A stretch of DNA of 24,178 nucleotides from a virus. The stretch's first letter is position 1; each line of letters begins with the position of its first letter. Made by a program: the position numbers and the translations under genes. The stretch covers positions 1 through 24,178 of IMG/VR virus record IMGVR_UViG_3300042507_001612; one strand, given 5' to 3'. Below the pieces are notes generated by a model, which had not been told where the DNA came from, did not search any database, and saw only the letters and a program-made list of their open reading frames with translations. Below are positions 2,032 through 19,267 of the stretch, in pieces.

Positions 2032-2057
2032 AAATCAAAACTTTTTATATCAAGTTA

Positions 2058-2864
2058 TTAAGAAGCTTCTTGGTCATCAAGAATAAAAATACCCGAAGCA
2101 TTTATAACAATGTTACCAGCCTTGTAATAAGTTCCGGCAGCTTGTACACTTGATGTAGTACCTAAAATAACAGTAGCCATAAATCCGTCTGCGGTGAGGT
2201 CACCTGTCGTAGCACTTGCTCCAGCTTCTACCGACCAACGTGCGGTCAAGGAGTCCCAGTAGAATGCGTTACCTACACCATTTGAACCAGACTGAACAAC
2301 GATACCACCTTCAATAGGAGAACCACCAGTTGAACCGGAGTTTAATAAGATAAACTTATCTTCAATGTTTAAGTTTGTGGAATTAATTGTAGTTGTAGTT
2401 CCATCTACAAATAAAGTACCTGTGATTGAAACATTACCAGTTGCAGTTATATCCTTAAATGTTACGTCATTGGTAGTTCCAACACCTTGAATTGTACCAG
2501 TTCCTTCAAGAGTAGTTACTCTACCCGCGATACTCGCGGCCGTAGTCGCGATGGAAGATGAAGTAGTGGTAAATGCACCACTAATAGCGGTCTTTAATGC
2601 GTAAGAGGATGTAGCAGCTGTAAGTGTTCCAATATCAGTCGTATTGGTTGTAATATTAGTCGTATTAGTTGCAATGTTAGTTTCATTGGTTGTAATTCTT
2701 GTTGATAATCCACCGGATACTGCGGTAAACGCACCACTAATATCGGCTGCAATTTGGGCTGATGATGATACTATTCCACCACCGATAGATGCAATGTATC
2801 CCACGTCATTGGTTAGTTGTGAAATAGCACTTCCACTAACTACGATTTTTTTAAATGTTGGCAT
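2058..2864 (-). CDS. Fibre-like structural protein
   Basis: The product has 268 aa, with AAGGAG 8 nt before ATG 2864. The N-terminus, MPTFKKIVVSGSAISQLTND, parallels the gene starting at 1724. Residues 55-75 contain an NxTNIxTNTT repeat (NETNIATNTTNITTNTTDIG), typical of trimeric coiled or beta-helical stalks in phage fibres. The C-terminal half has the motif GNVSITGTLFVDGTTTTINS followed by NLNIEDKFILLNSG, a pattern I associate with structural proteins of T4-like aquatic phages. A fibre or virion-surface protein is the best reading, and the exact position on the particle is unknown. A near-match of the recurring promoter-like motif (TACTTATT, 2916-2923) lies 51 nt upstream. Confidence 0.75.
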   Translation of the reverse strand: MPTFKKIVVSGSAISQLTNDVGYIASIGGGIVSSSAQIAADISGAFTAVSGGLSTRITTNETNIATNTTNITTNTTDIGTLTAATSSYALKTAISGAFTTTSSSIATTAASIAGRVTTLEGTGTIQGVGTTNDVTFKDITATGNVSITGTLFVDGTTTTINSTNLNIEDKFILLNSGSTGGSPIEGGIVVQSGSNGVGNAFYWDSLTARWSVEAGASATTGDLTADGFMATVILGTTSSVQAAGTYYKAGNIVINASGIFILDDQEAS

Positions 2865-2923
2865 TTTAATTCTCCTTTTTTGTTAATGCACTAACGGAAC
2901 TTTTTAGATATCATTAATAAGTA

Positions 2924-3682
2924 TTAAGATATTAAGTAAAAACTACTTGCTGAGTAAGCAATTGTTCCTATGGGTGCGTTATTTAAATCTTTATTCATAT
3001 CACCCAAAACTACAAATCCATCTGAATTAACTTCAAACGATTTAAATGAACCACTACCAACTGATAGTGAACCTGTAATTTGAATATTATTTGTTGTTGA
3101 GTAGAATGAACCTGTTAAAGTGAAGATTCCACTAACTATGGCTATATTGGTAACAGCGTTTGTAAAATGTTGTGATGATGTATCTAATCTAAACTCAAGT
3201 TCTTTAGAAATACCATCGCCATTTGTATCAGACAGCGATGTAAAAATTTGAATACCATCACCAGCAATAATTTCTAAAGAATCAGAGCCCGTTGCAACTA
3301 ATGTAGCTGAACCGCTTACTATAATATCACGGAAGTGTGAGCCAATTGAAACAAAAGCAGTTCCGCTAATTGATTCAGTTACATTTAATCCGGTTGAGGA
3401 ATCAAATTGTAAGTTACTAAATACTTTGTTAATTTGCTCACCGGATGGTGTTGAACCCGATATGGTAAGTCCACCTACAACTTCCCATCCAATAATTGAG
3501 TTATAATTTGCAATATCAGTTAATACAAAAAGAGTGTTATTATCGGTTTGATAAACTAACAATCCCTCATAAACATTCGCAGCGGAAAACCCAAGTAGTT
3601 CGCTTTGATTTTGGACCACAAATCTTGAATCAACCGGGTCAATGTTTAATATATTAAATCCACTGGGTAAATTAATAGCCAT
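2924..3682 (-). CDS. Fibre-like structural protein
   Basis: The product has 252 aa. ATG 3682 is preferred over an in-frame TTG at 3688 because AAGGAG sits 7 nt before it, overlapping the TAA stop of the upstream gene. The upstream stop and this ribosome-binding site are therefore fused, suggesting coupled translation. The N-terminal part (MAINLPSGFNILNIDPVDSR, then YEGLLVYQTDNNTLFVLTD) looks like the start of phage virion-surface proteins. The rest is Ser/Thr/Gly-rich beta material (TLTGSFYSTTNNIQITGSLS). There is no Cys, no signal peptide and no membrane segment. Function is inferred from composition and location in a run of four similar genes. Confidence 0.7.
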   Translation of the reverse strand: MAINLPSGFNILNIDPVDSRFVVQNQSELLGFSAANVYEGLLVYQTDNNTLFVLTDIANYNSIIGWEVVGGLTISGSTPSGEQINKVFSNLQFDSSTGLNVTESISGTAFVSIGSHFRDIIVSGSATLVATGSDSLEIIAGDGIQIFTSLSDTNGDGISKELEFRLDTSSQHFTNAVTNIAIVSGIFTLTGSFYSTTNNIQITGSLSVGSGSFKSFEVNSDGFVVLGDMNKDLNNAPIGTIAYSASSFYLIS

Positions 3683-3693
3683 TATCAATCTCC

Positions 3694-5202
3694 TTATGTA
3701 AGAATGTATGTTATTGAATTACCAGCACCACCCGCCTGAAGGGTATTTGACCTGTAAATTTTGTAGCTTCCAACAGTAGTAAGTGTAAATGATGAAAATA
3801 CACTAAACCCACTTGTCGTAATATCTGTTAAGTTTGATAAAGAACTATTGAATACTATATAAAGGAATTTATCACCTGTCCAACTAATTGTTACTGATTG
3901 TCCACTTGCAGTTGTTGTTCCTTTTGCAATCGTTCCTATTGTTCCACCCAATGCAGTATCCCAAGTAGCTAAATTAGCTAATTCAGCAGCGGTGAAACTT
4001 GTAGCAGTTGATGCTCCATATCTTAAACTTCTAATTTTTGTATAGGTAGTAGTTGTGGTTGATGTTGTTGTTAAATCAGGAATATTATCACCCAATGGAG
4101 ATGCGTAGTTTGCAGTTGCGATTATACTAATTGAAGTAGAACCTGTCGCTGAACCTGTTATAAGGTAAGGTGATTCTACGTTTGTTGTCACACTTGTCAA
4201 ATTCCAACTATTAGAAGGATTTACAGATGATGGTGTAAATGTAATACTACCCGTTGCACCCTGTTCGATTTGATTGGAACTAAATCCCAACTGAACCGAT
4301 GGTGTTGCACTTAATGTAGGTGCTGCAGGGTTGGTTTTAGATACTGTTCCCGTTGTAGTAGTTGATGTTTTGAATAAACTAGCATCCAATGGAGAACTAG
4401 CAGTATATTCCAATTTATATGTGTGAGAACCTGATGTCGTTGCACTAAATGTTAAAGATGTTCCACTACCAACTTGTGTTAATAGAGTTGCTCCTTCATA
4501 TAATGAGGCACTTACTAATGTATATCCTTGATTATTCCAAGTTCCATTAACTGAATATGTATCGGTTATGTTATTAAATCTATCGGTTTCAAATCCACTT
4601 AAAGTGGCTGCTAATGATGTTGGTTCGGTTGGTGTTCCAAAAATAAATTTTAATCTACCATCAACAAAAGTAACTGCAACATTATTGTCAAAATCAGCTA
4701 CTTCAATTTCATTTAAAGAAAGATTACCACTTTCAGTAATAAAAGTAAGAGAGCCTCCACCACCAAAACCACTTGCAGCAGCAGAGGCTGAAATGAATGT
4801 AGAACTTATAAATGAAGCGGTTAAAGCACTCAACACACTCATTGAAGAGGTTTGTGTTGAATTCACAAATCCTAAATCTGCAATTTGAGTAGAGCTACTA
4901 ATTGTTCCCGGAGGAACAGTGCCTGATACTGCGGCTTGTACTTGACCAGATAGTGTACTTACACTACTTTCAATTGTAGTAAATCTTGTGGAAGTAGATG
5001 CTGAAATTGCAGGATATGTTACTTCTCTAAACCTATTATTTGAAATAATAGAATTTGCTTGGAATGGTTGTATTGTGGTTGGTTTATTAACAATGCTATT
5101 GAAATCAATTTGCGTTGAACCAGATACGATTTCACTACCAAGTAGTGAACCACTAATTGTTCCCTGAAATGAACCAAAAAAAGACCCTGAATAATCGGCC
5201 AT
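3694..5202 (-). CDS. Large Ser/Thr-rich fibre or adhesin-like structural protein
   Basis: The product has 502 aa, and GGAG lies 9 nt before ATG 5202. It starts MADYSGSFFGSFQGTISGSL, and residues 1-150 are Ser/Gly/Thr repeats around SGSTQI and SSSTQIADLGF. Residues 190-390 hold beta-rich segments resembling Ig-like modules (TLSGFETDRFNNITDTYSVN, FTPSSVNPSNSWNLTSVTTN) with a Thr-rich linker (TTTSTTTTTYT). The C-terminus, from about residue 395, may be a receptor-binding or tip domain. Such composition is typical of phage receptor-contacting proteins, but I see no named domain. It follows phoH across a hairpin that carries the recurring AT motif in its loop. Confidence 0.75.
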   Translation of the reverse strand: MADYSGSFFGSFQGTISGSLLGSEIVSGSTQIDFNSIVNKPTTIQPFQANSIISNNRFREVTYPAISASTSTRFTTIESSVSTLSGQVQAAVSGTVPPGTISSSTQIADLGFVNSTQTSSMSVLSALTASFISSTFISASAAASGFGGGGSLTFITESGNLSLNEIEVADFDNNVAVTFVDGRLKFIFGTPTEPTSLAATLSGFETDRFNNITDTYSVNGTWNNQGYTLVSASLYEGATLLTQVGSGTSLTFSATTSGSHTYKLEYTASSPLDASLFKTSTTTTGTVSKTNPAAPTLSATPSVQLGFSSNQIEQGATGSITFTPSSVNPSNSWNLTSVTTNVESPYLITGSATGSTSISIIATANYASPLGDNIPDLTTTSTTTTTYTKIRSLRYGASTATSFTAAELANLATWDTALGGTIGTIAKGTTTASGQSVTISWTGDKFLYIVFNSSLSNLTDITTSGFSVFSSFTLTTVGSYKIYRSNTLQAGGAGNSITYILT

Positions 5203-6046: not shown

Positions 6047-7684
6047 TTAAGATAAAGTTTCTAAACCATGAACGTACACTTTACCGTAGAACTCACCACG
6101 AATCATTTCCTTCGCGTAACGAGTCATTACACCCTTACGAGGTTGGAAGTTTTTCGGGTCGTAAACTAACGGAGTCATAATCAATGGGATGTATGGAGCG
6201 TAAACAGCGCCAGTCTCAAGGAATTGTGAACCTTTGAAGCCCATCAATACTACGTTAGATTGCATGTATGGGTTTTTGTATACAGTGTAGCGGTTTGCGA
6301 ATGAACCTACTTGAGATACACCCATTGCGAACTGCATTGCTTCACCCGTACCATTTGATACGAATCCTGGGATAGATTCCAAGATTGTAGCAACATCAGG
6401 AGAAACTACCATAAAGTTAGCTCCACCTCTCATAGTCTTGGTGTGGATTTGGTTAGATACTCGTTGGAGAACCGTACCAAATGTTGAGAACCAAGTTCCT
6501 TGAGTGTAAGCTTGACCATTGGTTGCAGCATCTGCAAAGTTTGAACCATTCCATTGGAATCCAATTCTAGCTGACCAGTGACCTTCAGTTAATGCGTTTT
6601 GTTGTAACATATCCAAGATTTCGAGGTCGATTTCTTGAGAAATGTATTCAGATAACATTGAAGTCAATTCTGCTTCAGCATCAATTGAGTGGTATGCGTT
6701 CAAATCTTGAGCGAATTCTGGAGTCCATTGTGCTTTTAACTTACGAGTCTTAGCAACGATTGGAATAGAACGAAGCTCTACGTTCAATTCAGGAATACCT
6801 AAATCGGTTTCTGCGTTTGCAGCAAAACCAGCAGCAGTTTGTTCAAAGTCACCACGAGTAATATCCGTAGGTTGTTTGTGATACTTAATAAGTGCGTCAG
6901 TTGCGCCTGTAAGAGATGTTACTCTAACAACAAATTTAATTTGAGCATCATTTGAATTTATAGTTGTAAATTCAGGATAGTATTCTAAAATGTTAGTACC
7001 TTCGATTGAAAATGCGCGAACACCGTCTAAATCAGGACTAGTAAATGATGCGGTACTAAATGTAAGCGTTTGGTGAAGTATACCACCACCAGCTTCCGAT
7101 GATGACCATGCGGTATCGTAGTTAAAATCAGCAGCTGTAAGCGATGCTGTTACCATTGCAGTTGCAGTGGGAGCGGTAGCTTTAGTGCTGATAACAGCCG
7201 TGGGTACATCATTGATAGTGTAACCAAAACGACCAGCGCCATAAAGACCGCCAGTAGCTTGACCTGCGGTTTCGGTAACACCGAACACAGAGTCGTTTTG
7301 TGAATCTTTACCAGAACCGGTAGTGAAACCGGGCTGACCTGTACCATACTTGAAGTCCAAGTAGAATACAAGACCCGAAGGTAAGTTCATAGGTTGAACC
7401 GAAACGAATTCCTTCGCTGCGATTTCGGAGAAGATACGGCGAACTAAAGGAAGAGCTACACCAGCCCATTCTTCAGAGTTTGCCGATAGACCTGTAGCGG
7501 ATGCTTCAGATACTAATTGTTTTGCTTGGTTTTCAAGTAGAGTAGCCATGCCTGCTTTTTCAAAGTCTGAAGATAATCCTTCTAAAAGGCCAGTCTTGAC
7601 CCATTTAGATACGACACCTTTAGTCTCTTCAGACATTCTCTTGTTGAAACCAGCAGATTCAGCTAAAATGTTATTTACTTTCAT
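6047..7684 (-). CDS. 23: Major capsid protein, T4 gp23-like precursor
   Basis: The product has 545 aa; T4 gp23 has 521. AAAAGGAT lies just before ATG 7684. The stretch LVRRIFSEIAAKEFVSVQPM with NLPSGLVFYLDFKYG (about 79-114) aligns with the T4 gp23 region VRRAIPNLIAFDICGVQPMN. A predicted cleavage site for the prohead protease is LVSE|A at E60|A61, close to the known gp23 site E65|A66. That would leave a mature shell protein of about 485 aa. The C-terminal part (RYTVYKNPYMQSNVVLMGFKG, then YIPLIMTPLVYDPKNFQPRK) fits the HK97-fold core. The N-terminus MKVNNILAES also resembles the capsid-targeting peptides of neighbouring head proteins. It is the last head gene before a strong terminator. The identification is firm; the cleavage position is inferred. 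Confidence 0.95.
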   Translation of the reverse strand: MKVNNILAESAGFNKRMSEETKGVVSKWVKTGLLEGLSSDFEKAGMATLLENQAKQLVSEASATGLSANSEEWAGVALPLVRRIFSEIAAKEFVSVQPMNLPSGLVFYLDFKYGTGQPGFTTGSGKDSQNDSVFGVTETAGQATGGLYGAGRFGYTINDVPTAVISTKATAPTATAMVTASLTAADFNYDTAWSSSEAGGGILHQTLTFSTASFTSPDLDGVRAFSIEGTNILEYYPEFTTINSNDAQIKFVVRVTSLTGATDALIKYHKQPTDITRGDFEQTAAGFAANAETDLGIPELNVELRSIPIVAKTRKLKAQWTPEFAQDLNAYHSIDAEAELTSMLSEYISQEIDLEILDMLQQNALTEGHWSARIGFQWNGSNFADAATNGQAYTQGTWFSTFGTVLQRVSNQIHTKTMRGGANFMVVSPDVATILESIPGFVSNGTGEAMQFAMGVSQVGSFANRYTVYKNPYMQSNVVLMGFKGSQFLETGAVYAPYIPLIMTPLVYDPKNFQPRKGVMTRYAKEMIRGEFYGKVYVHGLETLS

Positions 7685-8870: not shown

Positions 8871-9122
8871 TTATTCTTGTTGTTGGCGACGCGTCCACTC
8901 TGCACGGAGTGCTTGATTTCGTAGCTCTCTTTTTTTCGTGGTAGGTTTTGTATACTCACGATTTTCTTTAATCCATTCAATTTTACCATTGTCTTTCATA
9001 TTCCGTTTCCAGAATCGTAAAGCGGCTTCTATATTATTATTTACTACCCTTACAGCGTTGGGCCTTCCAATAATAATCATATCGGTTTTTCTAACCTTTT
9101 TGTGTTTTTTGTTTTCTTCCAT
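8871..9122 (-). CDS. rpsU: Ribosomal protein bS21 homologue
   Basis: The product has 83 aa. From residue 20 the sequence follows the bS21 pattern: NAVRVVNNNIEAALRFWKRN, then a short spacer, REYTKPTTKKRELRNQA and a basic C-terminus RAEWTRRQQQE. The A-L-R-F-x-K-R helix start and the K-P-T/S turn followed by a basic helix are the family marks. An N-terminal basic extension of about 18 residues (KKHKKVRKTD) is unlike cellular S21. S21 is the commonest ribosomal protein reported in aquatic phages. It is thought to replace the host copy on the 30S subunit and bias initiation. It sits inside the head gene run, between a 51-aa gene and the scaffold, with its own promoter-like motif 19 nt before ATG. 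Confidence 0.8.
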   Translation of the reverse strand: MEENKKHKKVRKTDMIIIGRPNAVRVVNNNIEAALRFWKRNMKDNGKIEWIKENREYTKPTTKKRELRNQALRAEWTRRQQQE

Positions 9123-9156: not shown

Positions 9157-9312
9157 TTAACTTAAATCATCAAGTCCATTTTTAAAATCAGAAAAAAGTT
9201 TTCCTAATCCTCTTTGAGCACTTGGGGATAACTTTTTAATTTGTGATAAGTTTTTCTTAATCATTTGAGAAAACTCAACTGATAGGTCTTGTAGAACTTT
9301 AGTGTCGTTCAT
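9157..9312 (-). CDS. Small hypothetical protein (51 aa)
   Basis: ATG 9312 overlaps the stop of the 819-aa gene as ATGA, and the frame ends at TAA 9157. The protein is a charged helical 51-mer, MNDTKVLQDLSVEFSQMIKK, then NLSQIKKLSPSAQRGLGKL and an acidic tail. No membrane segment or named domain is visible. The overlap implies translation coupled to the polyprotein-like gene, so it may be a head-assembly factor or extra internal protein. It fills a 186-nt stretch that would otherwise look empty. Confidence 0.7.
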   Translation of the reverse strand: MNDTKVLQDLSVEFSQMIKKNLSQIKKLSPSAQRGLGKLFSDFKNGLDDLS

Positions 9313-11768
9313 TTTACCTTTTCCTTTACAATCCGTTCGTTTACTGATTCATAGTAAAGGTTCATCATCATATCTTTAAGTTTTGGATTTTTAAAATCAC
9401 CTTTAAACTTCTCTAATGCTCGTCTTGCTTTTAATGCATTTGTGTTAGCAACTACAAAGTGTCCTGTCTTTTCACCACCCAATCTCTTAGCCATTGATAT
9501 GGCTTGTATTTTTGGACCAACACCTTTTTGATTTCCCATAGGGTCAATCACAGTATATTTTTCTTCGTTTACTGATTCACCTAGCTTATCACTTTTAACC
9601 ATGTTGATAAATGATTTGATATCATCTTTAAGATATTTAGAAGTTTTTGTTAGTTTACCAACTTTTTTTCCATTTTTTGATATTATCATATCTTTTTCAG
9701 TTGGGGCTTCAATTAAATCATAACCACCAAAACTTGCCAATACCTTAAATTTAGCTTCGTTTACTGATTCAACTGATTCCTTTACATACTTCATAGATGA
9801 GTTAGAACCATCGGTAAAAAATACATTATCACCATCAATCATTTTTACTTTTCGTTTGAATGGTCCTTTTTTACCTAAAGCTGATTCCCAATGAGGGTTA
9901 TCAACTTTAACCATTTTACCAACTGCGATTTCTTCGTTTAGTGATTCGGTCAGTTTAAAGTAAAAATATTTTCTCATATATTCTAATGACTTTATGATAT
10001 CTTGTAATTCTCTTTTACCCTTTGGTCCAAGTTCTTCATCTCTCAAATATGCACTTAAAACTGCGTATGCACCATTTACAAACTGATATGGGTTTTCAGC
10101 TTTTACAGTATACCCAGCTTCGTTTACTGATTCACCAATTGATGTTACTTTCCAATATAATCCTTTAGTTTTTTCAGATGGTGATAATCTTCTATTGAGA
10201 GTTTCAACCTCTTTTTCAGCTTCTCTATAAGTTCTATCCAAAGATAAAGTCTTTATAAATTTGTTTGTGTTTGGGTCTACTAATGATAGTTTTACCCCTT
10301 CGTTTACTGATTCAAGTTTTAAATTTCTTTGTGCATTAACTAATCCATTAATAATAGATTTTAAACCACCTTTAACTCCATCAGTATCTTTAGCTTGAAC
10401 TCTTTTATCCAAAATTTTGGTGTTCATCTTTAAGAAGTTGATGATTGCGTTTTCAACAGCGTTCCACTTGATTTCTTCTTCGTTTAATTTTCCTTCCATT
10501 ATACCCACTGCAATATCACCAACCACAAAATCAGGTTTAGATGCATATTTCTTATTTACAATAGCAACTTTGTTATTTGGAGTTGGTTGTATAATGTAAA
10601 TTGGTAATGGTTCGGTAGCAAAAGTATATTTCATACCTAATTTCTTTAACTCACTACCCACACTCATAAATGAAGATGCTGCTTCCACTGCACCTTTAAT
10701 TTTATCCATATCAGTAGAAGAAACACCTTCGTTTACTGATTCTTTTATAGAATATTTCATATGAGATGGTGCTGATTTTTCTAATGCCTTCATAGCAATT
10801 AACAAATCACCCTTTCCTTTTCCAGATAACACTTCATACTTTTCACCTGTCTTTTCATTATGAACAAATACTTTAGCTTCGTTTACCGATTCATTGGTTA
10901 CTTTAACACCCCTAACACCTGCCCAATCAGTTTTGTCAAGAATCATTGTGGAGTGGTTGTTTAATGATTTTGCAAACTTTTCAGCATCTTCTCTACTTTT
11001 ATATCCTGCTGCTTGTGGTTTTGAAAACTTACCATCTTTTTTTTGATATAAAACATAAAATAAATTAGAATCTCTTTCTTCGTTTACTGATTCATCTGCT
11101 TTTTTACCAGCTCTTAAATCAGCCAAGTCATCAGCTTCAATGTCACCATCACTATCAACATCCAACTCTTTTTGTTTGCCTGTTAATTCTTCGTTTCGTT
11201 TGATTAAAGATGTTAGCTTCATAGACTCATTAGCGAACTCGTCTGCGTTCTTCTTGTCTTCAGCGTCTACACCGGTTACTTTATAGGATTTACCATCAAC
11301 TTCAAATGAATCATCACCATTAGCGATAGCTTTTGCTCTTTCAGCACCAAACTCATTACCTTCTTTGATTTCGTAGTATTTACCAAGAACCTCACCGATT
11401 TCATCGTAAGATGATTCTAATCTTTGTTGTAAGGTAGATACCTCTTTGATTGTGTTTGAGAAAACCTTGAATGATTCGTTCATAGATTTCATATGTCTCT
11501 GAACAGTTACTCTATCAAACCAATCACCAGTTTCTTTTAAGGTAAGGTTATTTGCGTTTTCAACAATACCTTTGATTGAATCATGGATTTCTGAAATATT
11601 ACCTTTGTGTGAAATCATTTCACCTAATTGGCGGTAAGCAGCAACAGCCTCAACAAATGCACGCTTTTCTTCTTTGGTCATTCCTTGACCTTCTTCATCT
11701 TCGCCTACATTCATCCTACGATAATCTAAATGTTGTGATTCTTTAAGTAATTGTGTTAACTTTTTCAT
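9309..11768 (-). CDS. Multidomain protein with ten S-V-N-E-type junctions, probable internal-head polyprotein
   Basis: The product has 819 aa, with AAGGATAG before ATG 11768. The N-terminus, MKKLTQLLKES, resembles a capsid-targeting peptide. Residues 1-200 are largely helical. An EF-hand or dockerin-like loop, DVDSDGDIEADDLADL, starts at 203. Junction pentapeptides end at residues 230, 297, 347, 430 (GKLNE), 490, 550, 612 (ESLNE), 671, 735 and 811. Between them lie small dissimilar segments of 50-83 aa, most beginning with a short beta-strand and ending in a helix (FYVLYQKKDGKFSKP, AKVFVHNEKTGEKYEV, EKYTVIDPMGNQKGVG). The junctions fit a gp21-type V-x-E|A/G/E rule, and the protease gene is about 0.9 kb upstream. 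The inference is a precursor cut into about ten proteins packaged in the head. Alternatively E-S-V-N-E is only a linker within one long core protein. No segment has a recognisable enzyme. Confidence 0.8.
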   Translation of the reverse strand: MKKLTQLLKESQHLDYRRMNVGEDEEGQGMTKEEKRAFVEAVAAYRQLGEMISHKGNISEIHDSIKGIVENANNLTLKETGDWFDRVTVQRHMKSMNESFKVFSNTIKEVSTLQQRLESSYDEIGEVLGKYYEIKEGNEFGAERAKAIANGDDSFEVDGKSYKVTGVDAEDKKNADEFANESMKLTSLIKRNEELTGKQKELDVDSDGDIEADDLADLRAGKKADESVNEERDSNLFYVLYQKKDGKFSKPQAAGYKSREDAEKFAKSLNNHSTMILDKTDWAGVRGVKVTNESVNEAKVFVHNEKTGEKYEVLSGKGKGDLLIAMKALEKSAPSHMKYSIKESVNEGVSSTDMDKIKGAVEAASSFMSVGSELKKLGMKYTFATEPLPIYIIQPTPNNKVAIVNKKYASKPDFVVGDIAVGIMEGKLNEEEIKWNAVENAIINFLKMNTKILDKRVQAKDTDGVKGGLKSIINGLVNAQRNLKLESVNEGVKLSLVDPNTNKFIKTLSLDRTYREAEKEVETLNRRLSPSEKTKGLYWKVTSIGESVNEAGYTVKAENPYQFVNGAYAVLSAYLRDEELGPKGKRELQDIIKSLEYMRKYFYFKLTESLNEEIAVGKMVKVDNPHWESALGKKGPFKRKVKMIDGDNVFFTDGSNSSMKYVKESVESVNEAKFKVLASFGGYDLIEAPTEKDMIISKNGKKVGKLTKTSKYLKDDIKSFINMVKSDKLGESVNEEKYTVIDPMGNQKGVGPKIQAISMAKRLGGEKTGHFVVANTNALKARRALEKFKGDFKNPKLKDMMMNLYYESVNERIVKEKVK
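9336..11093 (-). repeat. Ten interspersed copies of a 15-nt coding repeat (E-S-V-N-E)
   Basis: Coding-strand GAATCAGTAAACGAA or a close variant occurs in frame at 9336-9350, 9564-9578, 9756-9770, 9933-9947 (ESLNE), 10119-10133, 10299-10313, 10479-10493 (GKLNE), 10728-10742, 10878-10892 and 11079-11093. Seven copies are identical at the DNA level, including third codon positions, while the DNA between them is unrelated. Spacing is about 150-250 nt. Confidence 0.95.
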
Positions 11769-11779
11769 TTTAGCTATCC

Positions 11780-12631
11780 TTATTTTTTACCTTCAACAAG
11801 TTTTTCAATTTTTTCACCCATTGGTCTACCAATAGTCATTGATACATAAAATCCAATTGCGTCTACGATGTCTTTACCATCCCATTTTGCAAGAGCCGCA
11901 ATGTTTGGACCTAACTCATATTCATACATTTGTATAAGGTCCTTCTCCGCCATTGGGTCACCTTCGTATTTTGCTCTTGGAAAAAGTGATGGAACCTTCC
12001 TTGATGTTGAATGGAAGTTAGCATCAGTTAATGCACCCTGTAAAATGTACATTATTGCAAATTGGTGATTTGGACCACCTTTTCTTAAATCACCAAGTTC
12101 ACGTTCTAACATTTTGTTAACTTTTACATTTAACTGGCGGTCCATTTCATTTAATTTACCTTCGTTCATACCACTACCATATTCGTGGTAGTTTGAAGAT
12201 GCTTGTGAAATATATTCATCAGCCATAGTAATGTAACTCTGAATCCAAGCTGGAATATCTTTTTCCATCTCACCCATTTTTTGCTTCAATTCAGTAGCGT
12301 ACTTGATAATTGAATCTAATGAGTTTTGAGACATTTTCACTTCGTGGTCTTGTTCTTCGTTTACTGATTCAGAAAACATTTTAATCATTTTCCTTTGGAT
12401 AGGATTATTAGGTTTACCTACAAGTGCAGTTACAAAATCCATTTTACCATCTAGCTTACTTTTTTTAAGAAATTGGTATAATTTTTCAATATTCAACTCG
12501 TTAGTATCAACGAATTTTTGAACTGCATCGGCTCTTGTTGCAGTTAATGAAGCAATCGCTACTGCGAATTTGCTAATACCAGCATTAGTATATTTACTAA
12601 CATCTTCTTTTAATAATGACATCATTTTCAT
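11780..12631 (-). CDS. Head-region protein with S-V-N-E-type junctions
   Basis: The product has 283 aa. ATG 12631 overlaps the protease stop (ATGA), so translation is probably coupled. The N-terminus MKMMSLLKED matches the short L-L-K-E start of neighbouring head proteins. An ESVNE junction lies at residues 88-92, and GMNE|G and GKLNE|M near 153-160 look like further protease sites. These would divide it into a helical N-terminal piece, a middle helical piece (QNSLDSIIKYATELKQKMGE) and a C-terminal domain of about 120 aa (NHQFAIMYILQGALTDANFH). The function is unknown. By position between gp21 and the large polyprotein-like gene it is a candidate internal or core head protein. Confidence 0.75.
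   Translation of the reverse strand: MKMMSLLKEDVSKYTNAGISKFAVAIASLTATRADAVQKFVDTNELNIEKLYQFLKKSKLDGKMDFVTALVGKPNNPIQRKMIKMFSESVNEEQDHEVKMSQNSLDSIIKYATELKQKMGEMEKDIPAWIQSYITMADEYISQASSNYHEYGSGMNEGKLNEMDRQLNVKVNKMLERELGDLRKGGPNHQFAIMYILQGALTDANFHSTSRKVPSLFPRAKYEGDPMAEKDLIQMYEYELGPNIAALAKWDGKDIVDAIGFYVSMTIGRPMGEKIEKLVEGKK
12356..12370 (-). repeat. E-S-V-N-E coding repeat in 283-aa gene
   Basis: GAATCAGTAAACGAA on the coding strand is identical to the commonest copy in the 819-aa gene, followed by Glu-Gln. Confidence 0.9.
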
Positions 12632-13269
12632 TTTATATCTCCAAAATCACACTCACAATATCCACCCACTTCGCAGATGATATCTCTCATAAGTGTATTA
12701 ACCTTATTATAATTAGTTTGTTTTCTTTGAAGTGATTCATTAATAACCCCTTCATTTGTAGGTTTCATAAAAGCACCATGCGTTGATGGGTTAGAAACAA
12801 AGTCCCAACATATTAATTCAAAATCAGTTTCAACGGCAACTGTACCATCTTCTTTGATTTGCTTAACTGAACCCATGCCCCTTGAAGAAATACCCACAGT
12901 ACAACCAGCGTTGATTATTTCTTGCAAAATTCTACCAGTAGGCGTGTTTAAAATTTCAACTTGACCCATTACATCATCACCTTTCCAGTAAACATCACGA
13001 ATAATGTGAGATGTATTTTTTAGTTCAACCACAGACGATTCAGGATGGTCTAATTCACCATACGCCCTGTTTTCTCTGATTTCTCTACCTTTATACTTTT
13101 CAATTTCACGTTCAAGGATATTTTTTGGATAAACCCTACCATTTTGATTTGTTGAGTTGGCTCTTTGTAATACACCCGTTACAAGAAATCTACCATTTTT
13201 ATTAAGTGATTCTTTTAAGATTTGAGGTGTAATCTCAAATAAACTAACATCAATGAGTAATTGCTTCAT
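12628..13269 (-). CDS. 21: Prohead core protease, T4 gp21-like
   Basis: The product has 213 aa; T4 gp21 has 212. The segment GRVYPKNILEREIEKYKG (44-61), GELDHP with the likely catalytic His75, and GISSRGMGSV with the likely catalytic Ser (128/129) mark the phage prohead serine protease family, which shares a fold with herpesvirus assemblins. DFELICWDFVSNPSTHGAFM (149-168) completes the domain. The C-terminus carries PTNE|G and VINE|S, which look like self-processing sites of the same x-N-E type as the junctions in neighbouring proteins. The start ATG 13269 overlaps the stop of the 46-aa gene (TAATG). The role is to cleave scaffold, capsid and internal proteins inside the prohead before DNA packaging. 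Confidence 0.93.
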   Translation of the reverse strand: MKQLLIDVSLFEITPQILKESLNKNGRFLVTGVLQRANSTNQNGRVYPKNILEREIEKYKGREIRENRAYGELDHPESSVVELKNTSHIIRDVYWKGDDVMGQVEILNTPTGRILQEIINAGCTVGISSRGMGSVKQIKEDGTVAVETDFELICWDFVSNPSTHGAFMKPTNEGVINESLQRKQTNYNKVNTLMRDIICEVGGYCECDFGDIK

Positions 13270-13409
13270 TATTTTTCCCAGATTTGTTTTTTGCGGTAAA
13301 GGTCAAGAAACACTTTAGCTAATTCTTTACGAATTAACAATCTGATTTGAGAGATATCATCTATCTCCAAAGCTTCATTAACTTGATTCTTTTCACATCC
13401 GCAAGACAT
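13269..13409 (-). CDS. Small hypothetical protein (46 aa) with SCGC motif
   Basis: ATG 13409 lies 1 nt after the TAA of the 169-aa gene, and its own TAA overlaps the protease ATG (TAATG). The frame therefore fits exactly between two real genes. The product starts MSCGCEKNQVNEALEIDDIS and ends in a basic helix (RLLIRKELAKVFLDLYRKKQ). The Cys-Gly-Cys start could bind metal or form a disulphide. Q-V-N-E|A at residue 12 matches the junction motif of the polyprotein-like genes. No family is recognised. A T4-like gp67/68-type small core protein is possible by position only. Confidence 0.75.
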   Translation of the reverse strand: MSCGCEKNQVNEALEIDDISQIRLLIRKELAKVFLDLYRKKQIWEK

Positions 13410-13410
13410 A

Positions 13411-13920
13411 TTACGACCCTAGCTCTTTAATCTTACGAGAAATTTTTAACATTCGTTCAGAAATCTTACCAAATCTAATTTTTGTAGATTCCCAATACTG
13501 ACCTTGACTTAATCCCATTTCGGTTTTAAGTTTGGTATTTTGATTTACCAATTGTTCTACTTCGTAAAGTTTACGGTTGATTTCTTTAATAGCAATGTTT
13601 ACTTTTTTCGTTGCAGACATTGACTCATCTTTTCTATAAGCACGGTAGGTTGCTTCAATCAAATTTTCTAATTGAGAATCTATCTTTAATACTGATTCAA
13701 AATGTTTATTTGATTTTTTTGATTTTTTATATCCCAATACCTCAATGTGGTCATCATCCATATCATCTTCACTTTTAGCAAAAGCGTATGGTGTTCTTGG
13801 GGGGCCTGCCCCACCATCAAGGTTTGCAGTTACATTTGCCTCATCCAACTCATCTTCTTCTTGTTGAATTTCAAGTTCATTAAACTTATCTTCAAGTTCT
13901 TTTAGTAAGTATCTACTCAT
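13411..13920 (-). CDS. Conserved phage head-region protein of unknown function
   Basis: The product has 169 aa, and ATG 13920 overlaps the upstream stop as ATGA. It begins MSRYLLKELEDKFNELEIQQ, with the L-L-K-E pattern of neighbouring head proteins, followed by an acidic stretch. The segment ELDEANVTANLDGGAGPPRT then PYAF (residues 24-47) resembles a short Gly/Pro motif I recall from other T4-like aquatic phages. ELDE|A is a plausible protease site. Residues 70-169 are predicted coiled coil (LENLIEATYRAYRK, then KKVNIAIKEINRKLYEVEQL). It lies between portal and protease, where T4 carries its small core genes 67 and 68, but no homology to those can be shown. Confidence 0.75.
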   Translation of the reverse strand: MSRYLLKELEDKFNELEIQQEEDELDEANVTANLDGGAGPPRTPYAFAKSEDDMDDDHIEVLGYKKSKKSNKHFESVLKIDSQLENLIEATYRAYRKDESMSATKKVNIAIKEINRKLYEVEQLVNQNTKLKTEMGLSQGQYWESTKIRFGKISERMLKISRKIKELGS

Positions 13921-14756
13921 TTTAGTTTCCTCACCTCTTCAAGCAATTCGTGGTATCTTAATAAGGAAAGAACCTGTGTTTCGCTGATTATCTTTGATGT
14001 TGCAATGTTTTCCATTAAATTAATGGTTTCATTTAACTTAATAGATACAACCTTATCTGATACTTTTACTTTACCAAATGCGGTCTTTAATTTTTTAACC
14101 TCGGAAATAACATATTTTCTTAATTTTTCTGAATTATCAATGTTATTGATGTATGTTCTTAATACATTCTTTTGTTCCAAAGTTAAACTTGAATACTTTT
14201 CGTTAAACGAATCAACCAAGAATTTGTAAGCCAATAAACGAACTTCTTTTGGTTGGGTTGTGTATTCTTCGTTAATTTTTTCTTCTATCAATTGCTCTTT
14301 TTTGGTAATAATACTTTCAAAAATAGTATTCTTACAATCAACCCATTCTTTTGGAGAATTTTCTTGTTTATATTCAAACAATTTATAGGTTGATGCTAAT
14401 TCTTTGTAATTGTTTACACGATATTTAAAAAAGTCATCAATCTTATATGATTCTTTGATAGATTTAATAAGATTATATTTTTGTCTACGGAGAAGTGATT
14501 CGTTTAAATTTCTTCTTTGCTCTAAAATAATATTAACAAATTCTTGAGCTTTGTATTGAGTGTCAAATGTTTCTTTTTGAAGCGTTTGATAAAAATTTAA
14601 TTCTTTAGTTAGTTCAGTTCCTTTTTTAAAGTGGAACTTTATAATTTCAAGCGCCAATGAGTTTTTGCCACCCAATGTATCAGCAGCAATTTGTCTCACC
14701 AGTAGCTCAAATAAAATACCTGTATTTTTGAACTTACTATGTTTTAGTTTACCCAT
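13917..14756 (-). CDS. Conserved head-region protein of unknown function
   Basis: The product has 279 aa, starting MGKLKHSKFKNTGILFELLV. It is Lys/Glu/Leu-rich and almost entirely helical, with no Gly/Pro-rich linkers, no signal peptide and one Cys. The first 50 residues (TGILFELLVRQIAADTLGGK) look well conserved in similar phages from memory, but I cannot name a family. It follows the portal and precedes the protease cluster with an ATGA overlap, so a role in prohead assembly or portal-core contact is likely. A promoter-like motif lies 24-35 nt upstream. Confidence 0.7.
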   Translation of the reverse strand: MGKLKHSKFKNTGILFELLVRQIAADTLGGKNSLALEIIKFHFKKGTELTKELNFYQTLQKETFDTQYKAQEFVNIILEQRRNLNESLLRRQKYNLIKSIKESYKIDDFFKYRVNNYKELASTYKLFEYKQENSPKEWVDCKNTIFESIITKKEQLIEEKINEEYTTQPKEVRLLAYKFLVDSFNEKYSSLTLEQKNVLRTYINNIDNSEKLRKYVISEVKKLKTAFGKVKVSDKVVSIKLNETINLMENIATSKIISETQVLSLLRYHELLEEVRKLK

Positions 14757-14780
14757 TTCAAACCTTTTATTTGACTTTCT

Positions 14781-14792
14781 AATAAATAAATA
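14781..14792 (-). promoter_or_regulatory. Overlapping TATTTATT motifs downstream of portal gene
   Basis: Coding strand reads GATATTTATTTATTAG, two overlapping copies (14785-14792 and 14781-14788), about 24 nt before ATG 14756. Confidence 0.4.
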
Positions 14793-14804
14793 TCGTATTG
14801 TAGG

Positions 14805-16667
14805 TTAAATCGTATCATCTAACAATTGTGACTCATCTAATAACCCAGATTCTTCAGGTTTAGACTCTTTTTTTAACGATTCCATAATCATAGATTTAGT
14901 TTTAACCTTCATTTTCTTTAAAGAAGAATTCAATGCGTTTTGAGATTCAACCGCCATTGGTCCTTTTCTAAAAGTATGATATGTGCTGTCTCTACTAATG
15001 TCGGTTTGTTTACCAAGTGGGTCTCTACCCATATTTGCTTGGTCAGTTCCATAGGTTCCACCTTCGGTAGGTCTTCCAGCGCCAGGTTGACCACCTTCAG
15101 GCGAACCACCTTCTTCTTCTTGACCTTGTTGAGAAATCACAGCAAGGTCGTGTGGAGTTCCAAACGATTCACCTGTTTTAGCAGGGTCATTACCTTCAGT
15201 AGTAATTTGTTCGTGTCTAAATGATAACTTTAAATCATCAATTACTCTTTGTTGTTCTACTTCCCACTCATCCTCGGACATATTAAAGATATTTTTGTAA
15301 ATCCACTCTTGTGAAATCATCTTCAAATCCTTCAAGTCTCTTATAAGAGCTGTTTTTTCAGAAAGTAAAGCAATCTTTTCTTGTTCGTAGATAATAGATG
15401 GGTTCGTAAGCTCTAACTCAAAGTTAACAAGGTCTTCGTTTTCGTATCCTTGTGAGTAAAGGTGAACGATTGCGATTTTGGTAAGTTCTGATAGAACAAT
15501 CTTTTGAACTCTTTCAACAGTTCTTGCAAATCTAATGTCTTGTTGAGCAAGGGTTGCTTTACCTTCTACACCTTCTTCGTATCCGATGAATGCTTTAGGA
15601 ACTTTTAAAGCAGCCATCATTCTATTCTTCAGGTATTCAATATCATCAATACCACCGAACTCCATACCACTCAAAGAATCAATTTCAGTTCCGCTTTGAC
15701 CACCACGAACCGGTAAGAAGTAATCTTCTAACATATTCATCATGTTGAACTTGAGGTTGTAATCGCCTGTGTTAGGGTCAATGTATGGAACTTTTTTCAT
15801 TCCATCAATAATGTTCTGCATATGTTGGTCAACCTCTTGTGGTGGGATATTACCAACATCAATTTTAAAGATTCTTTTTTCAGGCGCTCTCATAATTCTA
15901 TGAATCATCATTGCGTCTTCCATAAGAGTCAATTGCTTCCAAGTTTTTCTAGCACCCTCTAACAAAGAACGACCATATGGTAAGAAATTTGAGTCGGCCA
16001 TCAATCTAAAATGCGCAACCTGATAAAATGGGAAATAAGTTTGTTTATCTTTACTACCATATGTAAAATTGGTAGAAGAACTCATACTTGCTAACTTGAA
16101 CCTAACCTCATAGGGGTTATCAGGATTAAATCCTTCTTCACGCTCAAGTTCGTATGCTGAAATTGGTTGAACATTTACAATACCAACACCCTCTTCAATA
16201 TCTAAATATAAAAAGTAATCACCATATTTGTTCATACCACGAACCCAAGCCCAAAGGTTAAATTCAATGTTTAAGATATCGTAAAATAAGTTGTGTAAGA
16301 TTTTCTTTAAAGTCTCATCCGAAGATTTGATACGAATTACATCACCCATATCATTCTTTAGGGTACACTCATCGGAGTAGATATCTAAAATAGAAGTGAT
16401 GATTGAATCTTTGTCCATCGCCTCATAGTCAGTATATAGTTCTAACTTATTTGAGTGATAGTTGAATTGTTGGTTGTAGGTTTCCCAATTTCTACGAGAT
16501 GTATGTAAACGACCAAATCTATCGTAATACGATGTTCCACGGATGTTACCTTGGGATTGAAGTCGTTGCGAATCTACAGTCTGTAAACGATTCTTACCAA
16601 CTCTTCTTACGATGACTTGGGTAGCGAATAGTTTTTGTAGTTTTCCAAATAATGAATTATCTGCCAT
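14805..16667 (-). CDS. 20: Portal vertex protein, T4 gp20-like
   Basis: The product has 620 aa; T4 gp20 has 524. Recognisable portal segments include RGTSYYDRFGRLHTSRRNWE (about 39-58), YEAMDKDSIITSILDIYSDE (80-99), the clip and stem region ending MRAPEKRIFKIDVGNIPP, and KNRMMAALKVPKAFIGYEEG, a signature of gp20 family portals. Residues 430-470 contain helices typical of the crown. The C-terminal region, about 505-560, is low-complexity Gly/Glu/Pro (EEEGGSPEGGQPGAGRPTEG), and the tail is Ser/Lys/Glu-rich, which accounts for the extra length. The dodecameric ring sits at one capsid vertex, nucleates head assembly and is the DNA channel. It lies directly after the terminase gene, with no tail sheath or tube genes between them as in T4. 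Confidence 0.95.
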   Translation of the reverse strand: MADNSLFGKLQKLFATQVIVRRVGKNRLQTVDSQRLQSQGNIRGTSYYDRFGRLHTSRRNWETYNQQFNYHSNKLELYTDYEAMDKDSIITSILDIYSDECTLKNDMGDVIRIKSSDETLKKILHNLFYDILNIEFNLWAWVRGMNKYGDYFLYLDIEEGVGIVNVQPISAYELEREEGFNPDNPYEVRFKLASMSSSTNFTYGSKDKQTYFPFYQVAHFRLMADSNFLPYGRSLLEGARKTWKQLTLMEDAMMIHRIMRAPEKRIFKIDVGNIPPQEVDQHMQNIIDGMKKVPYIDPNTGDYNLKFNMMNMLEDYFLPVRGGQSGTEIDSLSGMEFGGIDDIEYLKNRMMAALKVPKAFIGYEEGVEGKATLAQQDIRFARTVERVQKIVLSELTKIAIVHLYSQGYENEDLVNFELELTNPSIIYEQEKIALLSEKTALIRDLKDLKMISQEWIYKNIFNMSEDEWEVEQQRVIDDLKLSFRHEQITTEGNDPAKTGESFGTPHDLAVISQQGQEEEGGSPEGGQPGAGRPTEGGTYGTDQANMGRDPLGKQTDISRDSTYHTFRKGPMAVESQNALNSSLKKMKVKTKSMIMESLKKESKPEESGLLDESQLLDDTI

Positions 16668-16705
16668 AATGTTTTTCTTAACTAAAAGAGTATACTTTTA
16701 CAAGC

Positions 16706-16713
16706 TATAAATA
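16706..16713 (-). promoter_or_regulatory. TATTTATA motif upstream of portal gene
   Basis: Coding strand reads GTATATTTATAGC, 38 nt before ATG 16667, in the gap after the terminase stop. Confidence 0.4.
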
Positions 16714-16739
16714 TACAAAAAATAAACCACACTACCAAA

Positions 16740-18314
16740 TTAAAGTATCCAAGTCATATCAATATCGTTTCCACGACCATCTTTAATAACCCAAGGGTTG
16801 TGTTGACCCATTCTTGCATTGTAAACCCCACCATTTGTTTTTGAAATGTGACTTAATGCGGTACGGCTTAAATCTATACCCTGTTGTCTTAATTTTAATG
16901 CGGTGTCTCTTACCCAAAGTCCTGTGGAGAACGACATAACCAAGTCATCATTATACCCTTGTTGAGCTTCTGCTCTACTACCATTCCAAATGAATACGAA
17001 TAGTTCATCAATAAGACGCTTTGAGTGAATGATTGGTGTCTTTTCTCTCATATAGGTGTCAAGTTTAGAAATCACCAAAGGTCGTGTTCGTGAGGACATT
17101 GTAAAGCCCGGAACCATATCTTCTTTTTTCTTTAAATCCCAACCCCTACGAAGATGAATATCTTCATCAATATAACCTAAATCACGATACGAGTAATATA
17201 AATTTGTATAGTTTCTATCAATAACTTCTTGGATTACAGCCCAACCAATGTTTGCATTTTCAACCACCAACATTGCATTATTCCACTCTGCAGCAACGGA
17301 TGTAAGGAATGCCCCATATTGTTTGGTTTCAATCTTACCTTTGTATTCCGCAACTTGTTCTACAGTTTCAACATCAATAACGTGAAACGCTGAATAGTCA
17401 GTTGAGTCACCTCTAGCTACATCGGCAACCACCACATAGTCACGAGAATAATTTGGATATTCCCATAACCAATAGTTTCCATCAAATCCTCGTTTTTCAA
17501 TTGGGTCTTTAATGTAAGTTTCAGTATACCAAGTTAGGATTGCTGAGTCAACTACCGTGTAACCTGAACTGATAAAGTCACAATCACATTCTTGTGCTGC
17601 ACCCTTTTCACCAAGTAATTTTGTTTGACCATCCCTCCATTTTTGGTCTCGTTCAGGGTGAACTGTCCAGTGAAGTTTAATTGGATTCCAACTATCACCA
17701 GCCTCACCTTTTAACCAAATTTTGTGAAACCAATTACCCACACCATTTGGAGTTGATAACACAATGGCCTTACCACCGGTAGAAAGGGTTGATTGTGAAG
17801 AAGTCCAAATATCTTCAATATTGGAAATAAACGCAGCCTCATCCATAATCAACATTGAAAGAGCTTCAGAACGACCCGCGTCACCTGCTGCTGATGTTGC
17901 TTTGATTTGAGAACCATTTCTTAATCGTAAAGAAAGTTTATTATCCTCTTCGGTTTGACCTCTTAACCAACTTGGTAAATTTTCGTGCATAAACCTTACT
18001 TTAGTCACAAGGTTTTTTGCTACTTCTTGTTTGGTTGCAATTACCAATATGTTTTTGTCTTCGTGGAACAACATCATCCACAAAGAATATCCTGCCGATA
18101 GAGTAGAAATACCTAACTGGCGAGATTTAAGGATTACATTAAATCGGTGGTCATCAAATTCCCTCATCAAATCTTCTTGGAAATCATAAAGATTGAAAAG
18201 AATTTTACCTCGGTGGGGGTGTTGGATATAGCAATATTTCTTAAAGAAATACACGGGGTCTTTAGCACATTTAATATACTCTTCCCTAATAAGTTCTTTT
18301 AAACTTTTTGCCAT
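16740..18314 (-). CDS. 17: Terminase large subunit, T4 gp17-like
   Basis: The product has 524 aa; T4 gp17 has 610. Adenine-binding region: YDFQEDLM, residues 43-50. Walker A: SRQLGIST, 64-71. Walker B with catalytic Glu: LSMLIMDEA, 152-160. Coupling motif: LSTPNG, 186-191. The nuclease domain begins about residue 290 with DYVVVADVARGDSTDYS (Asp298), then VVENANIGW (Glu352) and NDDLVMSFS (Asp456/457), an RNase H-type metal triad. It packages concatemeric DNA through the portal and cuts it. Length is slightly short for T4-type enzymes because the C-terminal tail is reduced. No small terminase is visible. The portal gene follows. Confidence 0.96.
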   Translation of the reverse strand: MAKSLKELIREEYIKCAKDPVYFFKKYCYIQHPHRGKILFNLYDFQEDLMREFDDHRFNVILKSRQLGISTLSAGYSLWMMLFHEDKNILVIATKQEVAKNLVTKVRFMHENLPSWLRGQTEEDNKLSLRLRNGSQIKATSAAGDAGRSEALSMLIMDEAAFISNIEDIWTSSQSTLSTGGKAIVLSTPNGVGNWFHKIWLKGEAGDSWNPIKLHWTVHPERDQKWRDGQTKLLGEKGAAQECDCDFISSGYTVVDSAILTWYTETYIKDPIEKRGFDGNYWLWEYPNYSRDYVVVADVARGDSTDYSAFHVIDVETVEQVAEYKGKIETKQYGAFLTSVAAEWNNAMLVVENANIGWAVIQEVIDRNYTNLYYSYRDLGYIDEDIHLRRGWDLKKKEDMVPGFTMSSRTRPLVISKLDTYMREKTPIIHSKRLIDELFVFIWNGSRAEAQQGYNDDLVMSFSTGLWVRDTALKLRQQGIDLSRTALSHISKTNGGVYNARMGQHNPWVIKDGRGNDIDMTWIL

Positions 18315-18321
18315 ATATTTT

Positions 18322-18329
18322 TATTTATA
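18322..18329 (-). promoter_or_regulatory. TATAAATA (T4 late-promoter-like) next to terminase start
   Basis: Coding strand reads CTATAAATAAAAA, an exact T4 late-type box, but only 7 nt before ATG 18314. Transcription from it would leave almost no leader. It also overlaps the stop codon of the upstream gene, so it may be chance. Confidence 0.25.
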
Positions 18330-18732
18330 GAGCGAGCAATAACGTAACTGTAGCCGCTCCGCCAGCAAATCCAATTAAAAGACCTTGCCACATTTTAGAA
18401 GATTTTTCTCTTTTTAAAACTTTAATTTGGTCTTCTTTTAGAGAAATTACTTTGTTTTTTTCTACAATAACCAAATCTTTTGAAGTGATAATTTTATTTA
18501 AGTTTTCAACTTCAACTTTATATAAATCAATAGACTTTGAGTATAAAACAACTTTTCCTTGTGTTAGTTGTAATTCTTCAACACACAAGTCACGCTCTGC
18601 TTTTACTTTTAATGCTTTTTCAAGAGTGGCTCTTGGAACTGCAATTAAGTTAGGTTCAGTTGAAAGCGTCTGTGAAAGCGTCGGCAATGTCGTTATCAGA
18701 CATAGCGTCAAGCTTAGCAACATCTTTTTCAT
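18325..18732 (-). CDS. Membrane/coiled-coil protein, possible spanin partner
   Basis: The product has 135 aa, and AAGGAA lies 7 nt before ATG 18732. There is an N-terminal signal-like segment (MKKMLLSLTLCLITTLPTLS), a central coiled coil (about 35-105, EVENLNKIITSKDLVIVEKN) and a C-terminal membrane segment (WQGLLIGFAGGAATVTLLLA). It overlaps the end of the preceding gene by 77 nt in another frame. Two short, overlapping, membrane-anchored coiled-coil genes suggest a spanin pair (Rz/Rz1 type) that disrupts the outer membrane at lysis. A Cys is present in the signal region, but the residues around it (T-L-C) are a poor lipobox. A structural or membrane-linked role is the alternative. Confidence 0.65.
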   Translation of the reverse strand: MKKMLLSLTLCLITTLPTLSQTLSTEPNLIAVPRATLEKALKVKAERDLCVEELQLTQGKVVLYSKSIDLYKVEVENLNKIITSKDLVIVEKNKVISLKEDQIKVLKREKSSKMWQGLLIGFAGGAATVTLLLAL

Positions 18733-19000
18733 ATTGTTTCCTTAACTTATTAATTTGAGTATCTTTTTTATCAATCTGAACATCAATTCTCTTTAATTCT
18801 TTTTCAATATCTTTATTGATTTTTAAAAGAGAGTCCGATTGACTTTCCAACTTTTCAATCTGCGTGTTGTATTCTTGTTCACGCTCTTTCAACATTCTTT
18901 CGTAATCTTTTTTGTAACGATTGCCAGCAAAAAAGAATTGATATGCTAGTAATGCTAATAACGCAAGAATTACAATTTGTTGAGTATTGAATCGTTTCAT
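18656..19000 (-). CDS. Type II membrane coiled-coil protein, i-spanin-like
   Basis: The product has 114 aa, and ATG 19000 directly abuts the upstream TAA. Residues 8-25 (QIVILALLALLAYQFFFAG) are a single N-terminal membrane helix. Residues 28-100 are a continuous charged coiled coil (KLESQSDSLLKINKDIEKEL), followed by DNDIADAFTDAFN. This is the architecture of Rz-type inner-membrane spanins, and the out-of-frame overlap with the next gene strengthens that reading. No holin or endolysin is visible in the window, so the lysis link is inferential. Confidence 0.65.
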   Translation of the reverse strand: MKRFNTQQIVILALLALLAYQFFFAGNRYKKDYERMLKEREQEYNTQIEKLESQSDSLLKINKDIEKELKRIDVQIDKKDTQINKLRKQYEKDVAKLDAMSDNDIADAFTDAFN

Positions 19001-19267
19001 TTACTTTTTAGCAGCAGCTTTGGGCTCAGCTTTAGGAGCAGCTTTTTTCTTTGGGTAGTATCTTTTCTTTTTAGGAGCAGCTTTTTCTACCACATTAGCC
19101 ACATCGGAAGCTTCTTTTATTACTTTTTTAACAGCAACTTTTGCTTCTGCAACAGCAACCTTTACTTCGGCTACTTCTTTTTTAATTTCGGCAGTAGTTT
19201 CTTTGATTTTTTCATCAATGGTAGTTTTACCAAGTAACCAGTTCCAAGCTTTCTTTAATGTTTCCAT
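19001..19267 (-). CDS. Small Lys/Ala/Pro-tailed protein (88 aa)
   Basis: ATG 19267 (METLKKAWNWLLGKTTIDEK) is preferred to an in-frame TTG 12 nt upstream. Residues 1-15 are an amphipathic, Trp-containing helix, and 18-60 a helical heptad-like stretch alternating Lys, Glu, Val and Ala (AEVKVAVAEAKVAVKKVIKE). The tail from 64 is Lys/Ala/Pro-rich (APKKKRYYPKKKAAPKAEPK), like histone H1 C-termini. A DNA-binding or polyanion-binding tail is plausible, as is membrane association through the Trp helix. No family is recognised. A TATAAATA box lies 54 nt upstream. Confidence 0.6.
   Translation of the reverse strand: METLKKAWNWLLGKTTIDEKIKETTAEIKKEVAEVKVAVAEAKVAVKKVIKEASDVANVVEKAAPKKKRYYPKKKAAPKAEPKAAAKK

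Follow-up and report, generated by a model that had tools for sequence, protein, structure and literature searches.

How does a single phage gene come to repeat one short sequence, synonymous positions included, between stretches of DNA that bear no resemblance to each other, and does that sequence help to exchange what lies between its copies? The question arises in IMG/VR record IMGVR_UViG_3300042507_001612, a complete record, 24,178 bases long, of a T4-like phage, the whole of which we analyzed and call the window. Four T4-like markers, a gp23-type major capsid protein (6047 to 7684, minus strand), an S77 prohead protease, a portal, and a large terminase, are all present by Pfam and PHROG. 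Three further genes, also on the minus strand, concern us here. The 819-aa gene (9309 to 11768) consists of an N-terminal core (module 0), nine modules, and a short tail; the 283-aa gene (11780 to 12631) encodes a targeting-like peptide, a module of the family numbered 15, a junction at 12356 to 12370, and then two more parts; and the 778-aa gene (20309 to 22645), upstream of the terminase gene, holds a second module array. The S77 protease (12628 to 13269, minus strand; Pfam PF03420, E = 9e-34; phrog_207, E = 9e-51), presumed to cut at the junctions, sits next to portal, core, and capsid genes, as expected of S77 prohead protease systems, lying between the portal and capsid genes and beside the module genes. 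The 819-aa gene has no Pfam or PHROG family; Pfam returned no family above cut-off in the module chains scanned and no embedded peptidase domain, the protease being a separate gene, and PHROG matches in these chains were only weak or of unknown function.

Two other features of the window deserve mention. A homologue of ribosomal protein S21 (8871 to 9122, minus strand; PF01165, E = 1e-9) lies between the 819-aa gene and a 336-aa gene, and Microcystis phage Mel-JY01 has an S21 homologue in the same region. At positions 3 to 1124 (minus strand), an ORF that runs off the contig end opens with a part resembling Hint/intein domains (PT-HINT, E = 0.003, below cut-off), after which come collagen-like Gly-X-Y repeats (PF01391, E = 1e-21), and its G+C content is 52%, compared with about 34% elsewhere.

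The repeated sequence, GAATCAGTAAACGAA, encodes Glu-Ser-Val-Asn-Glu (ESVNE), and we refer to it and its variants as seams. An earlier note on this DNA had claimed exact copies at seven of the 819-aa gene's ten junctions and at a single junction of the 283-aa gene, and all of these were located. On the minus strand, the exact 15-mer forms the seams between modules 0 and 1 (11079 to 11093), 2 and 3 (10728 to 10742), 4 and 5 (10299 to 10313), 5 and 6 (10119 to 10133), 7 and 8 (9756 to 9770, with a partial second seam before it), and 8 and 9 (9564 to 9578), and between module 9 and the tail (9336 to 9350), as well as the copy at 12356 in the 283-aa gene. The other three seams, on the same strand, are a synonymous variant, GAATCGGTAAACGAA, between modules 1 and 2 (10878 to 10892); GGAAAATTAAACGAA, encoding GKLNE, between modules 3 and 4 (10479 to 10493); and GAATCACTAAACGAA, encoding ESLNE, between modules 6 and 7 (9933 to 9947). 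The DNA between the seams was said to be unrelated, and indeed no module-module similarity was detected inside the 819-aa gene at E = 1e-3. Junctions of the same kind, absent from the earlier note, occur in the 778-aa gene, where the copies at 21266, 21485, and 22130 carry a single mismatch and those at 21734, 21905, and 21098 are looser VNE versions. Allowing up to three mismatches to the 15-mer gives 14 matches where 1.16 are expected (the maximum of 100 shuffles was 5), and every copy with at most one mismatch is on the coding strand and in frame. The seam is the sole many-copy repeat family found and, compared with integron attC-type sites, is a plain, nonpalindromic 15-nt direct repeat. 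Double or partial seams, such as GAATCAGTTGAATCAGTAAACGAA and ESVNESVNE, which occur at 9756 to 9779 and in relatives, are possibly scars of imprecise joining.

Codon usage as the only cause of this uniformity was ruled out. With codon frequencies drawn from the 819-, 283-, and 778-aa genes, seams left out, the exact spelling has a chance of P = 0.051 per ESVNE, and 8 identical spellings out of 11 were reached in none of 200,000 simulations. The pattern extends to 182 related ORFs, where 129 of 199 ESVNE seams have the exact spelling and the seam codons stand far from background (GTA, 98% versus 46%; AAC, 86% versus 41%; TCA, 82% versus 40%). The 35% of seams that deviate do so nearly always at synonymous positions. 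The valine of the predicted cut site in the capsid protein is likewise always encoded by GTA, so codon uniformity may partly reflect a preference set by context.

A conserved stretch of this kind could also be under constraint at the level of DNA or RNA, serving, for instance, as a recombinase, nuclease, or RNA-processing site, with the protein motif as a by-product. Such a reading would fit the confinement of strong conservation to 15 to 16 nt, and it would fit the 29 occurrences of the exact 15-mer in ten long relatives (71 to 276 kb), never on the opposite strand and with a count of 0 for the reversed control. However, the restriction to one strand per genome, together with the reading frame, points to a coding element; the synonymous deviations just described and the drift of same-neighbor seams at the rate of the module body (see below) speak against a nucleic acid site; and seams without ESV, such as GKLNE and SVVNE, also form module borders. 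We disfavor this explanation and consider it very improbable. The inspected positions of the 15-mer in the long relatives fall in these same head genes. In one contig, G009, a second cluster lies near 231 to 235 kb, which was read in part.

Relatives were collected by a protease search, which yielded sequences grading in identity from 100% down to about 60%, and the set was extended with the N-terminal parts of both large genes. When they are aligned, modules come, go, and change order at the seams, as the earlier note had predicted. Among informative relatives, L012 is the closest: its protease is identical, its DNA is about 98 to 99% identical across most of the region compared and 94% identical beyond that, further downstream, and its version of the 819-aa gene is 586 aa long. 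The DNA alignment with L012 has three clean gaps, of 150, 180, and 369 nt, with seams at every border. They correspond, on the minus strand of the window, to module 2 (10728 to 10877), missing in L012 and L031; to module 5 (10119 to 10298), missing in L012, L031, and L018 and present in L017; and to modules 7 and 8 together (9564 to 9932), missing in L012 and L031. The module order is thus 0-1-2-3-4-5-6-7-8-9 in the window, 0-1-3-4-6-9 in L012 and L031, 0-3-4-5-6-X in L017, and 0-3-4-6-X in L018, the last two differing in module content by module 5 alone. The comparison of L012 (about 10667 to 20416) with L031 also showed DNA identity rising from about 78 to 85% to 100% at the border between the protease and the 283-aa gene and staying there for nearly 10 kb, which represents either a very recent block exchange or an assembly chimera.

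Clean indels of at least 90 nt between close pairs numbered 23, a set that is partly redundant and not wholly independent. All 23 are multiples of three, both ends fall at seams in 16, and every one has at least one end no more than 17 nt from a seam end. The direct repeats shared at these indels reach 15 to 20 nt in several, whereas in several others a perfect repeat is short or absent. With chains left unsplit, 29 to 45% of BLAST alignment ends fall no more than 6 residues from a seam end, compared with 11 to 12% of random positions. It could be argued that the module differences are unreal and come from repeat-driven false joins in metagenome assembly: every modular relative is a metagenomic contig, and the window's own exact junctions matched no other contig scanned (its own record excluded). 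Yet identical arrays recur in several contigs, with the L012 type in three contigs, the L018 type in three, the L101 type in four, and the array of the window's 778-aa gene in two others, and the reading frame is kept by all indels. A repeat of 15 to 20 nt is also shorter than the usual assembly k-mers. Taken with these points, an assembly origin is scarcely credible.

The modules were also followed as families. Splitting the 182 ORFs at [VLI]NE and clustering the pieces gave 100 multimember module families and 95 singletons, some of them belonging to ordinary core genes, families of which were dropped from later tests. Module pairs from different chains with at least 85% DNA identity numbered 391, and these pairs, which are partly redundant and not independent, have an unrelated neighbor on at least one side in 230 cases and on both sides in 66, the latter spread over 20 families. 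L224 and L180, for example, share a 99% identical module set in otherwise unrelated DNA on either side, and the break comes at the seams. Some families are common to genes of the 819-aa and 778-aa types, at best with 70 to 85% protein and 77 to 88% DNA identity, and modules of one family occur in different genes at 81 to 88% and at 94% DNA identity. Family 15 follows the targeting peptide in the 283-aa gene and is also present in the 778-aa gene, in the gene immediately upstream of the protease, and at other places. Order is variable as well: of 235 family pairs seen in at least two chains, 29 occur in both orders, some merely through multicopy families, with 16/21, 15/20, and 17/21 as clear instances. 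The earlier proposal of a cassette array within one gene holds for the shuffling of seam-bounded modules but not for its confinement to one gene; the same modules move between head genes that surround the prohead protease, of which there are at least three or four. In L252 (3618 to 5165), modules sit midway in a homologue of the window's 169-aa core gene (13411 to 13920, minus strand), its N- and C-terminal parts flanking them.

Outside this group the modules have left few traces. A comparison with 50,697 phage records found relatives only for the conserved ends of these genes, and matches in cultured phages were limited to the N-terminal core, in Microcystis phage Mel-JY01, and the terminal domains of the 778-aa protein. 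The latter (window positions 20309 to 20563 and 22130 to 22645) recur over short stretches in pelagiphages, roseophages, and cyanophages, with identity as high as about 70%, so these small domains travel well beyond this phage group. The bacterial genomes searched yielded no counterpart. Between its protease and capsid genes, Mel-JY01 (L009, 13395 to 14558) has a 388-aa gene that is ADP-ribosyltransferase-like by motif, with no Pfam match at E = 0.1 and one weak PHROG match of unknown function. In Flavobacterium phage immuto (L010), about 55 residues (EGFEQWLDSVSAQMDKFGKNNPTIQAIEKAV...) are duplicated in tandem within the core/scaffold-type protein (12955 to 14196), and an 841-aa gene (1335 to 3860) carries VNE/LNE sites.

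What the seam does as a peptide is suggested by its ending. T4 gp21 cuts after L/I-X-E (PMC9026906), and the seams end in V/L/I-N-E followed mostly by A, G, S, or E, which matches prohead-protease sites of the gp21 type ([LIV]-x-E), with P3 mostly Val as against Leu or Ile in the T4 motif. In the capsid protein of the window, LVSE60/A aligns with the cut site FLTE65/A of T4 gp23, and [VIL]-x-E is retained in the related capsid proteins listed. All three module genes begin with a short peptide ending in hydrophobic-x-Glu (MKKLTQLLKE, MKMMSLLKE, and MKNKEYYIRLGE), as T4 targeting peptides do, a likeness at motif level only. Judged by these motifs, each ESVNE-like linker most likely serves as a substrate site of the S77 prohead protease that the phage itself encodes. 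The seams might instead be flexible, never-cut linkers of an ordinary multidomain core or scaffold protein whose domains are shuffled without any polyprotein. Cleavage is indeed read here from sequence, and the N-terminal core is a conserved stand-alone protein in Mel-JY01; against this, the linkers match both the protease motif and the capsid-protein cut site, a stand-alone 99-aa gene in L181 places behind a targeting-like peptide a module found inside a chain elsewhere, and inserted modules split a core gene that neighbors the protease. We regard the uncut scaffold as unlikely. In the high-confidence AF2 model of a family 15 module (pLDDT, 90.5), five helices form a compact domain and the seam tail is disordered, and a fold search gave no significant match in PDB or BFVD. 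The model of the whole 819-aa protein was poor (pLDDT, 41), which leaves independent folding supported for a single family; that poor model hints at a shared strand-strand-helix-strand layout in modules 2 and 5.

A comparison of synonymous change in seam and module had been proposed as a check in the earlier note. Among modules at least 93% identical that kept their neighbors, seams drift like the module body (0.012 versus 0.013 on the left, 0.008 versus 0.009 on the right), so extra purifying constraint on seam DNA is unsupported. Seams whose neighbor had changed differ somewhat more than the body in the same identity range (0.044 versus 0.030 and 0.036 versus 0.023), and at high divergence their codon difference is 0.12 where 0.47 would be expected from the modules; the pairs behind these values are not independent, and same-neighbor pairs are few at high divergence. 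Normal synonymous drift, which the earlier note had listed among the findings that would refute it, holds for seams with unchanged neighbors. Individual seams drift, yet the pool keeps near one spelling; exchange and copying of seams fit this better than constraint on each copy, and the uniformity is more readily attributed to spread and exchange than to any added constraint. The left-right gradient of seam mismatches expected for crossovers inside the seam gave no signal.

These results bear most directly on the possibility that selection acts only as a filter: illegitimate recombination would strike anywhere, products in frame with a good protease site would survive, and seam DNA would have no role in the exchange, its uniform spelling reflecting context codon preference and a common linker origin. 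Since the seam is a probable prohead-protease site, selection for cleavable junctions contributes, and a clear role at the protein level is what a filter requires. Drift of same-neighbor seams at the module rate, direct repeats that are short or missing at several indels, and the existence of double-seam scars also suit it. On the other hand, the spelling far exceeds codon use and is kept between unrelated modules, perfect repeats of 15 to 20 nt are found at several indels, and the changed-neighbor seams show the 0.12-to-0.47 discrepancy given above. A filter alone is possible but, in our view, doubtful. Comparison alone accommodates seam identity raising the rate of exchange and seam identity marking the products that survive. 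Of the earlier claim that seams serve as recombination homology, then, module shuffling at the seams is borne out, while active guidance of recombination by their DNA identity is likely, given that T4 recombines at microhomologies of 6 to 10 bp (PMC9391042); the seam would be an active homology substrate rather than merely a selected product.

We therefore favor, with considerable though incomplete confidence, a head-internal module polyprotein whose protease-site linker doubles as a recombination seam. The 819-, 283-, and 778-aa genes would encode head-internal proteins of a T4-like phage, with the 819- and 778-aa products being polyproteins, strings of small modules joined by ESVNE-like linkers. 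During maturation the S77 protease would cut the chain into separate small proteins that remain in the capsid and are probably delivered with the DNA; cleavage, packaging, delivery, and a function for the modules as cargo are all presumed in this scheme. Recombination between identical seams of 15 to 20 nt, within one genome or between coinfecting relatives, would delete, insert, or exchange whole modules in frame and leave a junction that can still be cut, and no dedicated recombinase would be needed. T4 amplifies and deletes segments through microhomologies of 6 to 10 bp with one repeat copy retained (PMC9391042), a length that the 15- to 20-nt seam exceeds. The broader form of this proposal is a combinatorial cargo system in which several head genes dock a shared pool of small module families, one sequence provides both protease site and DNA homology, and the lineage rapidly reassorts its delivered proteins; on this broader form our judgment is evenly balanced.

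The components of such a system are known (targeting peptides, internal and polyvalent proteins, multisite substrates); the combination was not found in the open-licence literature searched. The T4 internal proteins IPI, IPII, and IPIII also pair an N-terminal peptide ending in hydrophobic-x-Glu with small, variable head cargo (PMC9026906, PMC9391042), and they share the gp21/S77 protease and an accessory gene content that varies between relatives, but T4 devotes one gene to each internal protein, whereas here ten modules lie in one chain with predicted internal cut sites at which exchange occurs. Polyvalent proteins of phages and conjugative elements likewise carry many domains per chain and are proposed to enter the host at infection and be separated by proteolytic cleavage (PMC5512222); they differ in having recognizable enzyme domains and an embedded peptidase, in contrast to small modules without known domains and a separate head-maturation protease. 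T4 gp22 and gp67 and head proteins of phiKZ and SPN3US have several Glu-terminated cut sites per protein, as here (PMC9026906, PMC5694885), yet the regions cut from these multisite substrates are mainly scaffold or propeptides, unlike the modules, and seam-bounded shuffling of unrelated modules is not described for them in the literature searched. Cyanobactin precursor peptides set hypervariable cassettes between near-identical flanking DNA that includes processing signals (PMC3062557), but the proteins are unrelated, the cassettes are shorter than 30 bp, and the products are modified peptides rather than folded domains.

If this interpretation is correct, a T4-like phage would need no separate promoter, start, and targeting signal for each of the many small head-internal proteins that it keeps and reassorts, and the clean borders of the modules would be explained. 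It would represent a natural case in which protease site and recombination seam occupy one sequence. It would also supply a rule for finding hidden phage cargo, namely, to look for long head genes in the vicinity of an S77 protease and divide them at seams of the hydrophobic-x-Glu type, and the dozens of uncharacterized module families described here would become candidates for roles in host takeover or counter-defense.
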